Assembly (NCBI GenBank): GCA_014190035.1
Contig: BJFU01000005.1
Location: 6,529 to 44,413, forward strand
Length of the DNA: 37,885 bases
From: Actinomycetes bacterium
GTDB taxonomy: Bacteria; Actinomycetota; Actinomycetes; S36-B12; UBA5976
Direction: 5' to 3'
Part shown: positions 31,640-37,885 of the stretch, one piece after another
How positions within the stretch are numbered: the stretch's first letter is position 1
How the letters are laid out: every line of letters starts with the position of its first letter
Made by a program: the position numbers and the translations under genes
Notes under the pieces: generated by a model
The model's input: the letters and a program-made list of their open reading frames with translations, nothing else
Told to the model about the DNA's origin: nothing
Databases searched by the model: none

Positions 31640-32514
31640 TAATTACAGACTAATACAGTTAAGGATTTTGGCAGCATTTTCGCGGTAAAATCACCAATAC
31701 TAATTGAATCACCATCAGATTGAGCTCTTATGACGGTATCAACTCCTTTTACTTCAATGCTTTTGACTGGATATTGACGAAATTCAGGTCTTCCATAATG
31801 TTTGCCCGCAAGCAAAAGCAAAAATAGATAAATCAACTTCAACTTATTGACTTTGTTGACAAGTATTAAATACAAATCATCAGCCTCAACATTAGCCTTG
31901 TTGCTAATAATCATTCCCCCACCAAAACTAGGGGCATTCGCCAAGATCGCTAACGAATACGAATTAGTCTCTGAAACGGCCGAAGATTCAATATTGACTG
32001 TTTCATGTGATTTTCCAAGAAGAGCAACAAATGTTGCCACCGTGTACTTAACCCTGCCGAAAAATCTAGGAAGAGTTGAGGCAATTCGATTAACTTTGGC
32101 TTCAAAGGCAAAGCAGGAAATAGTCAGAGAGTGATGCTGACCATCATTTATAGAAATAGTATTAATTTTCTTAGTTTCAAACCTTTCAATATTCTTAATA
32201 AGGCTATTTACGTCATCTGTCATATTTAGATGATTTGCAAAATCGTTCCCAGATCCTGTGGGATAAACGATTAATGGGACATCGCTATTAATCAGATAGG
32301 AGCAAATTCTTGAAACTGTGCCGTCTCCACCGCATATAATAATGACGTCGATGTTTTTTGATAGCACTTTACCGACGTCATCTAATTCTTTATCAGACGA
32401 GGCTGAGAAATCTTCGACTTGGTGATTCTCTAATAATCTATCTCTTAAGATTTTAATAGCTTCCCTATTGAATTTTCTACCGCTAGTTGGATTAACAACT
32501 AATGCAATTCTCAT
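31639..32514 (-). CDS. Diacylglycerol kinase-family lipid kinase
   Basis: RIALVVNPTSGRKFNREAIKILRD; DVIIICGGDGTVSRICSYLI; LIVYPTGSGNDFANHLNM; ANAPSFGGGMIISNKANVEADDLYLILVN. Confidence 0.9.
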   Translation of the reverse strand: MRIALVVNPTSGRKFNREAIKILRDRLLENHQVEDFSASSDKELDDVGKVLSKNIDVIIICGGDGTVSRICSYLINSDVPLIVYPTGSGNDFANHLNMTDDVNSLIKNIERFETKKINTISINDGQHHSLTISCFAFEAKVNRIASTLPRFFGRVKYTVATFVALLGKSHETVNIESSAVSETNSYSLAILANAPSFGGGMIISNKANVEADDLYLILVNKVNKLKLIYLFLLLLAGKHYGRPEFRQYPVKSIEVKGVDTVIRAQSDGDSISIGDFTAKMLPKSLTVLVCN

Positions 32515-33398
32515 AGAATTGATTCGATTCTGTCACTTAGCATCTTCTGCAAATTGCTTTTCATTTTTTTCGAGCACACAATCTCAGTCTTGTCGTCAAG
32601 TCTTAAAATAATTTCCAATAAATACTCAGGATCAATAAGATCCATTTCTATATGTAGTTGATCTCCTGATCGGGTGTACGGAATATTAAGATCCAGAATA
32701 TTACTGGCATTCCATGACTTAGTACGCAGCGATATTTTCTCGCTGTAGATGTTATTTTGTGTAATTTCTTGCGGCAATGCATCTAGTGGTACTACAGCAA
32801 CTTCAATTATTCTGTCGAGTCTAAAGGTTCTTTTTTGAGAACTATTATTATCTAGCGCAGTCAGATATTCCTTGGTATCTAGAGTTTTTATCTCTATAGG
32901 CGTAATGGATCTTTCCGAGGTCAACTTCAAGTGACTATCTATATAGTGAATAACCAATTGTTTTCTATTTGCAATAGCCTCTTTAATCCTATTTTTTTTA
33001 TTTGAATATTCTTGTTTGTATTTTTCATCTGCAATATCTGATTCAATTAATCCAGAAAGTTTAATATCAATATCTAGAATCTCTTGCTTATCCTTTGAGA
33101 TTTCACTTAGGTTTCTAACTCCCAAAAGAAGCAATACGGCCTCAATATTGTTTAACCGCAAAGGTCTATCGAAACCTTGGCTGTCTATAACTGAAATATT
33201 CTCATCGTCATATTGAATATCAACTAATTCGCCACCAAATCTACCCGGTCCGACGTAGGTTAAAAGCGATAAATCCTTATTGGCCTCGTCACGAGATATA
33301 TCAAACTGGGCGCAAAAATTATCAATAGATGTGTTCTTATTCTGGATTAGCCATGGTAATTCTAATAAAAGTCTTGATAGTCGATCGTTTTTAGTCAT
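32511..33398 (-). CDS. pafC: WYL-domain regulator PafC
   Basis: N-terminal HTH-like region (LSRLLLELPWLIQNKNTSIDNFCAQFDISRDEANKDLSLL), WYL-type core (IANRKQLVIHYIDSHLKLTSERSITPIEIKTLDTKEYLTALD...QKRTFRLDRI), and tandem position after pafB. Confidence 0.88.
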   Translation of the reverse strand: MTKNDRLSRLLLELPWLIQNKNTSIDNFCAQFDISRDEANKDLSLLTYVGPGRFGGELVDIQYDDENISVIDSQGFDRPLRLNNIEAVLLLLGVRNLSEISKDKQEILDIDIKLSGLIESDIADEKYKQEYSNKKNRIKEAIANRKQLVIHYIDSHLKLTSERSITPIEIKTLDTKEYLTALDNNSSQKRTFRLDRIIEVAVVPLDALPQEITQNNIYSEKISLRTKSWNASNILDLNIPYTRSGDQLHIEMDLIDPEYLLEIILRLDDKTEIVCSKKMKSNLQKMLSDRIESIL

Positions 33399-34317
33399 GA
33401 CTCAAAACCTTCACGAAATCCTTTAAGTATTTCTTGTAATACTCCCGAATAGCGTCATTATCGATAGAGACAATAATTGAACTAAATCGTAGAAGATACT
33501 TAGCAAAAGACTTCTCGTCGAAGAATTTAAAATCGATTGTTCTTTCCCCAATAGCAGTACCGCCAGTAATATGCGAAATTAATGATGCATTTTGATTTAT
33601 CTCGACTCGGACAGTTCTAGGTAGCGTTTGGTTATTGTCCTTCTTAAGAAGATTTAACTCAATTGCACTCGCAGGTTTTATTATTATTTCGCCTACAATT
33701 CTGGATGTTTGGTAAGTCTTCCAAGTCGTAGAAATCAATTCATAGGCATCAAAATACCAATTATCACCTTGTCTATAAAGTTTTTTTGGTATCACTTGAC
33801 GACTCTTTGGTTCATTATCATCAAACGAAACGTACTTAAAATCCATGACCGATTTAGTGTTTAAGGATTTCATAATACTTCTGAACTTTAATAACTCCCC
33901 TGAATAAATTTCTTTATTTTCATCACTCGATTTAAGGTTTATTGAGCCTCCTGTTTTCAAAGTTGCAGACTTCGCTAAATTTTCAAATTCTGTTCTATGC
34001 CAAGTTGTTGAAGCTAAGCTAAGTATTGCTCTTTCTGAAGGTGTCCATTCAACTGTTTTCGTGAGAAAAGTTTTCGAATCAACCTGATATCCAAGTTCAT
34101 CGTCAAATAGCGGATCGATAGGAACTGCGTCTATCTTGATGCCAGTGTTTCTTAATTCATCCTTATCGCGTTCAAACATTCTTTCGAAAGCAGTTTCACT
34201 TTCACATTCCTCGTAACCGTTGACTTTTTGTCTGATTTCATGTCTAGGTATTGGTCTTTTAGAGTTTATGAGAACAAAGAATAGATTTAGAATTCTTTCT
34301 GATTTACTCACACTCAT
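33391..34317 (-). CDS. pafB: WYL-domain regulator PafB
   Basis: KSERILNLFFVLINSKRPIPRHEIRQKVNGYEECESETAFERMFERDKDELRNTGIKIDAVPID; WYL core (VMDFKYVSFDDNEPKSRQVIPKKLYRQGDNWYFDAYEL). Directly follows pafA. Confidence 0.9.
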   Translation of the reverse strand: MSVSKSERILNLFFVLINSKRPIPRHEIRQKVNGYEECESETAFERMFERDKDELRNTGIKIDAVPIDPLFDDELGYQVDSKTFLTKTVEWTPSERAILSLASTTWHRTEFENLAKSATLKTGGSINLKSSDENKEIYSGELLKFRSIMKSLNTKSVMDFKYVSFDDNEPKSRQVIPKKLYRQGDNWYFDAYELISTTWKTYQTSRIVGEIIIKPASAIELNLLKKDNNQTLPRTVRVEINQNASLISHITGGTAIGERTIDFKFFDEKSFAKYLLRFSSIIVSIDNDAIREYYKKYLKDFVKVLSHD

Positions 34318-35685
34318 CTATAGTGTTGCAATCAGTTTGTCGACGCGTTCATCGATATTTTTGAATGGATCTTTACAGGCAATTGAACTTTGTTGTTGAT
34401 CGTTTATCTTCAAATTTACCCAATCAACTGTAAAATCTCGTTTCTTTTCTTGAGCAACTTTAATAAATCTTCCTCTTAAAGCGGCTCGAGTTGTTTCAGG
34501 AGGATTTTCCATTGCGCTATTAACGTCATTATTGGTGATCAGCGTCTTTGTCATGCCTGATTTTTCAAGAATGTAAAACAAACCTCGATCTTTTCTAATG
34601 TTGTGATATGAGATATCGAGCAGGATCAATCTTGAATCCATATCATTCAGCTGATGCTTTTCTTTGTAGGAATTCATGAACTTTCTCTTGATCATCCAGT
34701 CTAATTCCATATCAACCAAGGAAAAATCTTGACTTTCAAGTGCATCTAAACTTCGTCTCCACAGATTTAGGGCATATCTATAAAAAGGTTTGTCCAATAT
34801 TTCATCTAAACCAGGCATAGACAAGACGATGTTATACATCTCGTTTTGCATCTGAAGGGCGGTAATTTCACGTCCCGATGAAAGTCTAAAAGAATTTCTA
34901 AATTTCAGATCCTTTGATATATCTCTTATAGTTTTAATCGGATTCTCAATCGTGAATTTATCTTTTAATAATCCCAATTCGGCTGCTCGTAGCATTAACT
35001 CAGTCGTTGCAACTTTCAATACAGTAGTTGTTTCACTCATGTTTGAATCACCAACAATTATGTGTAATCTTCGATATTCATCAGGATCAGCGTGTGGTTC
35101 ATCTCTTGTATTAATAATTGGTCGAGATCTTGTTGTGGCACTAGAAACAGATTCCCACATGTGTTCAGCTCTTTGACTGATTTGGAAATTTGCACCCTTT
35201 GAGCTGGAAATCCATTTACCGGCGCCACAAAAAATTTGTCTTGTTATCAGAAACGGAATTATGCTTTCGGTTACTTCTTCAAAGTTCTTTTTCCTGCTAA
35301 CGGAGAAGTTCTCATGACAACCATAACTATTTCCTGCAGCGTCCATATTATTCTTGAATAAATGAATTTGGCCATTTATTCCTTCGGCATTTAATCTGAT
35401 TTCTGCTGAAACGGCTAACTCTTCAACAATCCTGTCACCTGCTTGGTCTTGCTTAATCAAATCAGAAAGGTTGTCACATTCAGCGGTTGCATATTCTGGG
35501 TGAGATCCAACATCTAAGTAAAGTCTTCCTCCGTTTGGAAGGAAAACATTAGATGATCTTCCCCAAACAACAACTTTCCTCAAAAGATATCTCGCTACTT
35601 CATCAGGAGATAGCCTTCTTTGTCCATCGACAACACAAGTAACACCATATTCAGTTTCTAAACCCATTATTCGTTTACTAAACAC
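34318..35685 (-). CDS. pafA: Pup--protein ligase PafA
   Basis: RIMGLETEYGVTCVVDGQRRLSPDEVARYLLRKVV; LPNGGRLYLDVGSHPEYATAECDNLSDLIKQDQAGDRI; GNSYGCHENFSVSR; RPIINTRDEPHAD. Confidence 0.97.
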   Translation of the reverse strand: MFSKRIMGLETEYGVTCVVDGQRRLSPDEVARYLLRKVVVWGRSSNVFLPNGGRLYLDVGSHPEYATAECDNLSDLIKQDQAGDRIVEELAVSAEIRLNAEGINGQIHLFKNNMDAAGNSYGCHENFSVSRKKNFEEVTESIIPFLITRQIFCGAGKWISSSKGANFQISQRAEHMWESVSSATTRSRPIINTRDEPHADPDEYRRLHIIVGDSNMSETTTVLKVATTELMLRAAELGLLKDKFTIENPIKTIRDISKDLKFRNSFRLSSGREITALQMQNEMYNIVLSMPGLDEILDKPFYRYALNLWRRSLDALESQDFSLVDMELDWMIKRKFMNSYKEKHQLNDMDSRLILLDISYHNIRKDRGLFYILEKSGMTKTLITNNDVNSAMENPPETTRAALRGRFIKVAQEKKRDFTVDWVNLKINDQQQSSIACKDPFKNIDERVDKLIATL

Positions 35686-35709
35686 TTAATTACCCCACGC
35701 AGGCATTAT

Positions 35710-35886
35710 TTATTGCCCGCCTTTTTGAATGAATCCCTTTACAAATTCTTCGGCATTTTTCTCAAGTACTGCATCAATTTCATCAAGCACTGAATCAAGA
35801 CTTTTAGTATTTGGTTTTGTGAAAGTAACATCAACATCATCTAGATTATCTAAATTGTTGGAAGAGATACCACGAATTTGTTCCAT
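35710..35886 (-). CDS. pup: Prokaryotic ubiquitin-like protein Pup (58 aa, C-terminal GGQ); not in the supplied ORF track
   Basis: Reverse-complement translation: MEQIRGISSNNLDNLDDVDVTFTKPNTKSLDSVLDEIDAVLEKNAEEFVKGFIQKGGQ*. C-terminal LDEIDxVLExNAExFVxxxxQKGGQ is the Pup signature. SD GGAGG lies upstream; located between dop and pafA. Confidence 0.96.
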   Translation of the reverse strand: MEQIRGISSNNLDNLDDVDVTFTKPNTKSLDSVLDEIDAVLEKNAEEFVKGFIQKGGQ

Positions 35887-35909
35887 TAACCTATGCCTCC
35901 ATTCACAGT

Positions 35910-37421
35910 TTAGTAAACCTCTGGATACTTGCGAATAGAATCGACTAAATCTAATGCTGTGTCTGACTGGCTGATTATCTCGCCAGTAAGTGGTTTTGTT
36001 CCCTTGAGTGGGTCTGTTGTAGAAATTCGAAATAGAGATTGATTCTTATCGATATCAAAAATCAAACTATCCCAAGATGCAGCAGCTATTGACTTGGAAA
36101 ACTTCGAAACAGATTTTCCTCTAAACCAGGCGCGAGTATCCTCAGGTGGTTCAGAAATTGCTGATTGAACTTCCATTGGATGTAGATATTCCTTGAGTAA
36201 TCGATTTCTTTTAAGTACTTGAGCTATACCGTCTTCAGCAGTAATTTCGCTATATTTGAAATCCAATGATTTAATTAAATCGTCTTCAAGTGATAGACCA
36301 TTCTTCGCTCGGTATTTTTCAATCAAAGACAGTTTTGCAATCCAATCAATTCTGTCTGCCAGATCTTCCTTATTACTTCTTAGGCCACTTAATGCTTGCT
36401 CCCAAAAATCAATTACCTGACGTGAGTTATCGTCATAACCTTGTTGTGCTAAATACGCTTTACTTTTTTCTAAATACCATTCTTGAACATCGATCGCTGA
36501 AAAATTCTTGCCTCGATTGTTTTCATAATTGTTCTTAAAATCCAAATCTTGAGAAATTTCTTTGACGACTCCCACTGGATTCATAAGATTAACTTCTTCA
36601 AAATCTACAAACCCATCTTCAATCATTGAGATGATTAATGCAGTTGATCCAACTTTTAAGATGTTTGCAAAATCACTCATGTTTGCATCACCAATAATGA
36701 CGTGCAATCTTCGACTAACCTTTGGATCTGCGTGAGGTTCATCCCTGGTATTGATGATTGGTCTTTTCATCGTTGTTTCTAATCCAACGTGTGCTTCAAT
36801 GTAATCTGCACGTTGAGAAATTTGATAACCGTTATTCTCTGATTCTTGACCAATTCCAATTCGTCCCGCTCCACAATAAATTTGGCGAGTAATAAAATGC
36901 GGAGTTAACCCCGCAACAATTTTTGTGAAATTAGTTGATCTTTTCATCTGATAATTTTCATGTGTTCCATAACTGGAACCCTTATTGTCAACGTTATTTT
37001 TAAAAACTCTAATTTTGTCTTCAGGAAATTCTTTGGCATCAAGAGTAACTGCAATCTTCATTATTTGCTCACCAGCTAGATCCCATTTAGTTATATCTAA
37101 CGGGATAAGAACTTCTGGAGCTGAGAATTCTGGATGAGCATGATCAACATAAAACCTCGCACCATTAGGTAATACTAAATTCGGAATGACTTGATCCTCG
37201 TCGGTTAATTGAGATGAATCTGCATCTGCTCTCGACATGTCAAAACCGCGTGCATCTCTTAAAGGACTCTCAACGTCGTAGTCCCAGCGAATGTTTGATT
37301 CAGGATAAACATGCTTTGCGTAGGCAAAGACTATTCGGTTAGAAAGTGTTATTGGATCGGTATTTTGAGCGCTAGATATTCCATATTCATTCTCTAAACC
37401 CATTACCCGTTTAATTGTCAA
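35910..37421 (-). CDS. dop: Depupylase/deamidase Dop
   Basis: KRVMGLENEYGISS; VLPNGARFYVDHAHPEFSAPEVLIPLDITKWDLAGEQIM; NNVDNKGSSYGTHENYQMKR; loop ARGFDMSRADADSSQLTDEDQVIPN. Confidence 0.96.
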   Translation of the reverse strand: MTIKRVMGLENEYGISSAQNTDPITLSNRIVFAYAKHVYPESNIRWDYDVESPLRDARGFDMSRADADSSQLTDEDQVIPNLVLPNGARFYVDHAHPEFSAPEVLIPLDITKWDLAGEQIMKIAVTLDAKEFPEDKIRVFKNNVDNKGSSYGTHENYQMKRSTNFTKIVAGLTPHFITRQIYCGAGRIGIGQESENNGYQISQRADYIEAHVGLETTMKRPIINTRDEPHADPKVSRRLHVIIGDANMSDFANILKVGSTALIISMIEDGFVDFEEVNLMNPVGVVKEISQDLDFKNNYENNRGKNFSAIDVQEWYLEKSKAYLAQQGYDDNSRQVIDFWEQALSGLRSNKEDLADRIDWIAKLSLIEKYRAKNGLSLEDDLIKSLDFKYSEITAEDGIAQVLKRNRLLKEYLHPMEVQSAISEPPEDTRAWFRGKSVSKFSKSIAAASWDSLIFDIDKNQSLFRISTTDPLKGTKPLTGEIISQSDTALDLVDSIRKYPEVY

Positions 37422-37434
37422 TTGTTAACTATCT

Positions 37435-37885
37435 CTAGAGAAATTGGTTAGCAGAACCTATTGTCTCAATAGATCTACCTTGTTCTGATCCATTGTTACT
37501 TTGAATCAAAGTTCTTAAGAAGACGATGCGTTCACCTTTTTTGCCAGAAATCCTTGCCCAATCATCTGGGTTTGTTGAATTTGGTAGATCTTCATTTTCC
37601 TTGAATTCTTCCAAGCAAGCAGAAACTAAATGTTGCACTCTGATGCCTCTTTTCTTGTTAGACAAGAATTCTTTAATTGCAGCTTTTTTTGCTCTGGAAA
37701 CAATATTTTCAAGCATCGCACCACTTGAGAAATCTTTAAAATACAGAATTTCCTTATCTCCATTTACGTAAGTTACTTCTATAAAACGATTTTGATCACT
37801 TTCTGTATACATTTGTTCCACTGCTTTATCGAACATTGTTTTAATTGTTGCTTGTCTATCACCTTTATGAAGAGCGAGATCATCT
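37435..37885 (-). CDS. arc: Proteasome-associated/ARC AAA+ ATPase (Mpa), C-terminal fragment continuing past the window edge
   Basis: The frame stays open from 37836 to the window end ([26 protein letters not shown]). [32 protein letters not shown] is characteristic of the Mpa/ARC C-terminus; terminal residues SANQFL. Confidence 0.93.

Follow-up and report, generated by a model that had tools for sequence, protein, structure and literature searches.

Of what use is Pup tagging to an actinobacterium whose pupylation locus lacks the genes of the 20S proteasome? The question is raised by a stretch of 37,885 nucleotides (the window, G000:C5:6529-44413) from a 1.26 Mb draft genome (G000, GCA_014190035.1), which is assembled in 122 contigs and 89.4% complete. 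In the order of transcription, its minus strand carries genes for ARC, Dop, Pup, PafA, a PafB-like protein, PafC, a diacylglycerol-kinase-like protein and a HelY-type helicase. The features needed here are the following.

37435-37884, minus strand: ARC/Mpa proteasomal ATPase, C-terminal 149 aa (ORF listing)
35910-37421, minus strand: Dop, Pup deamidase/depupylase, 503 aa, TTG start (PF03136 Pup_ligase, E 1.4e-161)
35710-35886, minus strand: Pup, 58 aa (PF05639, E 8.4e-16)
35686-35709: pup-pafA junction, 24 bp, the site of prcB-prcA (~1.5 kb) in relatives that have these genes, including G005 of the same genus
34318-35685, minus strand: PafA, Pup ligase, 455 aa (PF03136 Pup_ligase, E 2.9e-151)
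33391-34317, minus strand: PafB-like WYL regulator (Pfam and locus comparison)
32511-33398, minus strand: PafC regulator, HTH_PafC and WYL (Pfam)

A preliminary description of this DNA had reported a partial arc directly adjacent to dop, pup and pafA, with no space for prcB and prcA (prcBA) between the last two. The ORF listing reproduced its coordinates and its gaps of 13 bp (arc-dop), 23 bp (dop-pup) and 24 bp (pup-pafA) exactly, and a junction of 24 bp against about 1.5 kb in prcBA-carrying relatives indeed leaves no room. Contig C5 ends with the last base of the window, so the truncation of ARC comes from the assembly; no mutation is responsible. Its N-terminal part, with Walker A (GPPGCGKT), Walker B and the pore loop (KYVGETE), is placed on contig C20, and the two contig ends (window 37637-37885 of C5, positions 1-249 of C20) overlap inside arc over 249 bp with 98% identity; strain variation probably broke the assembly at this point. 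Since the remainder of ARC was found, the host operon is complete except for prcBA.

The absence of the proteasome extends beyond the locus. The proteasome fold (PF00227) gave zero matches in the host genome, the identical search being positive in 10 of 14 control genomes, and it is missing from 41 of the 43 genomes of the host family, several of which are 94-98% complete. Among genomes at least 85% complete, counted from the result rows, prcBA is present in 2/26 of the host family versus 83/92 of other families of the order. The host genome is an 89%-complete draft, so the empty search alone is no proof of absence and the claim for the host leans partly on its relatives and on the tail of ARC. 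The possibility, raised in the preliminary description, that the host does without a 20S proteasome is supported by this search and by the near-absence across the family. The other 20S activator, Bpa/PafE, which co-occurs with the proteasome (PMC8223512) and is said to be present in every species with a 20S, was detected in none of the 43 host-family genomes by a model (PF10759) that is positive in 13 of 15 relatives from the order. The two family members with prcBA, G005 and G012, carry it without detectable Bpa, and therefore the loss of Bpa probably preceded that of prcBA in this family. The same combination, prcBA present and Bpa/PafE not detected, was found in the order relatives G028 and G033; some of these four genomes are drafts, and G028 is 99% complete.

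The C-terminal tail of ARC, GQYL, binds the alpha ring of the 20S (PMC9599533, PMC8755798), and its absence is a stated trait of proteasome-less ARC (PMC3511204). GQYL was found in 15 of 15 prcBA-carrying genomes and in 0 of 19 prcBA-less genomes of the host family, the latter belonging to three clades and thus not representing 19 independent events. The host protein ends in ...SANQFL, that is NQFL where prcBA-carrying relatives have GQYL; other prcBA-less tails include GQIH, SNYSQK, GRYL, NPFA and an early stop after GRSIET. The change to NQFL is mild, with the penultimate aromatic residue retained, and by itself would not exclude docking. Taken together, the altered tails can be regarded as independent evidence, read from the proteins, that the proteasome has been lost. 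GQYL is retained in G009, a genome 75% complete whose contig stops inside dop. In three Brevibacterium loci (L189, L193, L196) prcB and prcA lie between pup and pafA, yet the ARC tail is VYPNSDLV and not GQYL.

A second element of ARC behaves differently from the tail. The beta-hairpin (ANGDK in M. tuberculosis) was reported to contact the 20S and to be conserved only together with the 20S core (PMC8755798); nevertheless, it reads VNGDK in the host, ANGDK in most prcBA-less relatives and close variants in the others. The hairpin may serve ARC itself, may touch some other partner, or may simply not have had enough time to erode since the loss. Its retention questions whether docking to the 20S alone explains its conservation, and is a point against the preferred reading given below.

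Among known systems, the locus shares gene order and proteins with the mycobacterial arc/mpa-dop-pup-prcB-prcA-pafA-pafBC arrangement, PafBC downstream included, save for prcBA; unlike that system, the host is devoid of the 20S core, Bpa/PafE and the GQYL of ARC. Corynebacterium glutamicum is more similar, with the order arc-dop-pup-pafA, pup directly before pafA, no 20S and an ARC without GQYL (PMC3511204, PMC8223512). The fetched Corynebacterium locus L194 has the same layout as the host, pup-pafA without prcBA, and an ARC tail TDVRVVQH, which agrees with the earlier remark that Corynebacterium pupylates without a proteasome. Micrococcus and Citricoccus (L188, L202) also have no prcBA and an ARC without GQYL, their pup-pafA spacing being about 1 bp; they represent a different actinobacterial lineage and an independent loss, and the loss in the host family is likewise independent of that in Corynebacterium. 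The host has the traits of Pup-only bacteria (the arc/dop/pup/pafA order, no prcBA, no GQYL, no Bpa/PafE) and departs from an associated, non-defining one in its still conserved beta-hairpin, which in C. glutamicum is IDGSV (PMC8755798) in contrast to the ANGDK-like form of the host family. Its locus is therefore of the Corynebacterium/Micrococcus kind, independently evolved. The layout, the loss of prcBA and the loss of GQYL were known from earlier publications on Corynebacterium and other taxa (PMC3511204, PMC8223512); no papers on Pup genes in the order of the host were found in the literature searched. What the host family adds is that the loss recurred within it, that sister lineages give a clean contrast, that ferritin is missing and that the hairpin has been kept.

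We consider it highly probable that the window holds a functional pupylation locus from which the 20S genes were deleted by lineage-specific loss, and that ARC unfolds Pup-tagged proteins without their proteasomal degradation. Gene content, the lack of prcBA, the eroded tail, purifying selection and the phylogenetic pattern were observed directly; the enzymatic activities are deduced from homologues and from the catalytic residues that are kept, and the biological role is likewise inferred. Pup in its Gln form requires deamidation by Dop. The host Pup ends in ...EEFVKGFIQKGGQ, with a terminal GGQ, and is of this Gln form like many others; Dop would deamidate it, PafA would then join it to lysines, and Dop could also reverse the attachment. 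ARC would recognise Pup, thread it, and unfold or pull apart the tagged protein. With neither a docking tail for the 20S nor a 20S core to dock on, ARC would release the product, which would escape proteasomal degradation, and Dop would recycle the tag. In the absence of such degradation, tagging would serve reversible disassembly, remodelling or regulation, in line with the scheme put forward for C. glutamicum. Of the proposal in the preliminary description that Pup and ARC work here independently of the proteasome, the retention of the genes without a 20S stands on the PF00227 absence, the family pattern, selection and the loss of GQYL; the unfolding, disassembly or regulatory role is a probable reading.

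The client of such a system is expected to differ from the published one. What is best known of Pup tagging in the absence of a proteasome comes from one example, the ferritin of C. glutamicum, which ARC takes apart in its pupylated form when iron is limiting (PMC8223512). Ferritin, bacterioferritin and Dps (PF00210) were found in 0 of 43 host-family genomes and in 14 of 14 controls, so this one demonstrated proteasome-independent client of C. glutamicum is missing from the host family, and for the published role to apply, a ferritin-like protein of an unrelated kind would have to serve. The proteasome has been lost repeatedly in this family, pupylation is kept under selection, and there is no recognisable ferritin; a second proteasome-independent role should therefore exist. 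It is possible, though we would put it forward only as a tentative extension, that ARC and Pup have acquired a new dedicated client or partner which is neither the 20S nor ferritin and which would keep the hairpin and Pup under strong selection beside a fast-changing PafA. If this were true, Pup tagging would serve regulation or disassembly alone in the host family.

It may also be asked whether the genes are a decaying remnant, Pup tagging having become functionless after the proteasome was lost. In genera g2, g3 and g6 of the family ARC, Dop, Pup and PafA were not found, and a trmI-type methyltransferase gene directly adjoins the FKBP-pafB-pafC flank (loci L114, L115, L116, L118), a clean deletion by which the entire arc-dop-pup-pafA block was excised with PafBC kept. 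The PafA branch is also longer in the host genus, about 0.84 against 0.20 changes per site in G005, the respective rpoB values being 0.12 and 0.165. According to quick trees, which give rough values and leave out G009, G051 and G057, the divergence of Pup-only members since the ancestor shared with G005 amounts to approximately 0.76-0.86 for PafA, 0.86-1.04 for Dop (0.55 in G005) and about 0.43 for ARC (0.41 in G005). That the pupylation enzymes vary more in sequence where a species has no proteasome had been noted earlier (PMC3511204). Against decay, however, the reading frames of ARC, Dop, Pup and PafA are all open and catalytic residues are kept. Over its whole length PafA can be aligned with a Pup ligase of known structure (4b0t, 2.3e-129), and its catalytic Asp is present in ...RLYLDVGSHPE..., the corresponding residue being Asn in 4bjr; Dop aligns end to end with the solved Dop 4b0r/5lrt, and the Asp of ...ARFYVDHAHPE... 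(D93) is conserved. The C-terminus of Pup is nearly invariant across the compared loci. Finally, dN/dS is 0.00-0.07 for all four genes in two close prcBA-less pairs from two lineages (G004/G006 and G044/G046), on the basis of which strong purifying selection maintains the proteins of the pathway despite the absence of the proteasome. With this evidence at hand, genes on their way out seem an unlikely explanation.

Genera g2, g3 and g6 are themselves actinobacteria without any pupylation, and PafC is kept in these relatives that have lost all Pup genes. Two further genomes, G002 and G003, have no Pup genes but lack pafC too; these are probable assembly gaps and were not counted as losses.

Somewhat more doubtful still is the thought that ARC passes what Pup has marked on to a different protease, such as Clp or one in the membrane, and that tagging has stayed degradative. 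The ARC core and beta-hairpin, conserved despite the loss of GQYL, leave room for another partner, but the tails differ among genera with no new conserved motif replacing GQYL, and the operon contains no linked gene for such a partner. Release of the unfolded protein by ARC is thus preferred, and it remains to be considered how the 20S genes were lost.

Mapping presence and absence on the rpoB tree, a check already suggested in the preliminary description, revealed a lineage-wide lack of prcBA with two exceptions. These are G005, a member of the host genus g1, and G012, from another genus of the family; they are the only 2 of 43 genomes with prcBA, in both cases between pup and pafA. The rpoB tree joins G005, with support 100/100, to the prcBA-less members of g1 as their sister, and the tree of ARC, Dop and PafA places it identically (G009, G051 and G057 are unreliable in that tree, because their contigs are without pafA and Dop was taken instead). 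In the tree of PrcBA, G005 groups with G012, inside the order, with support 96/92. From the placement of G005 and the grouping of its PrcBA within the order it follows that prcBA is most likely ancestral and was then lost. On the simplest reading, G005 and G012 represent vertical retention and the losses elsewhere were separate, one in the host genus after the split of G005 and others in the branches of g5 (with g3), g8 (with g6) and g2, their exact number hinging on deep family branches that rpoB does not resolve. A single loss in the family ancestor followed by regain through transfer in G005 and G012 is improbable: equal-cost parsimony on rpoB needs only three changes for it and the deep family branches are weakly supported, but it would demand two insertions exactly between pup and pafA, and the ARC, Dop and PafA of G005 are vertical, its PrcBA pairs as a sister with that of G012 within the order and its ARC tail GQYL is intact.

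The host family has three states, namely the full system, Pup only and none. It can be said that this is a natural series in close relatives with unchanged flanks, and a single genus holds sister species on both sides of the loss of prcBA.

Least credible, and very improbable, is that prcBA is hidden in the 11% of the host genome that was not assembled or, as the preliminary description had alternatively supposed, has moved elsewhere: the assembly is fragmented and incomplete, but the pup-pafA junction is assembled with only 24 bp, none was found in the host genome, prcB and prcA adjoin each other in all 17 prcBA-carrying genomes of the first survey and lie between pup and pafA (typically spaced by ~1.5 kb) in all such loci fetched, the relatives G001 (94% complete), G004 and G006 are likewise without prcBA, and the ARC tails are eroded.

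Two database titles deserve a remark. The contig of G004, a close relative of the host, that bears locus L124 (CAMATO010000022.1) is publicly titled Bifidobacterium breve, which looks wrong. L135, a contig titled Spirochaetaceae, has a locus that looks actinobacterial and may be a contaminant.
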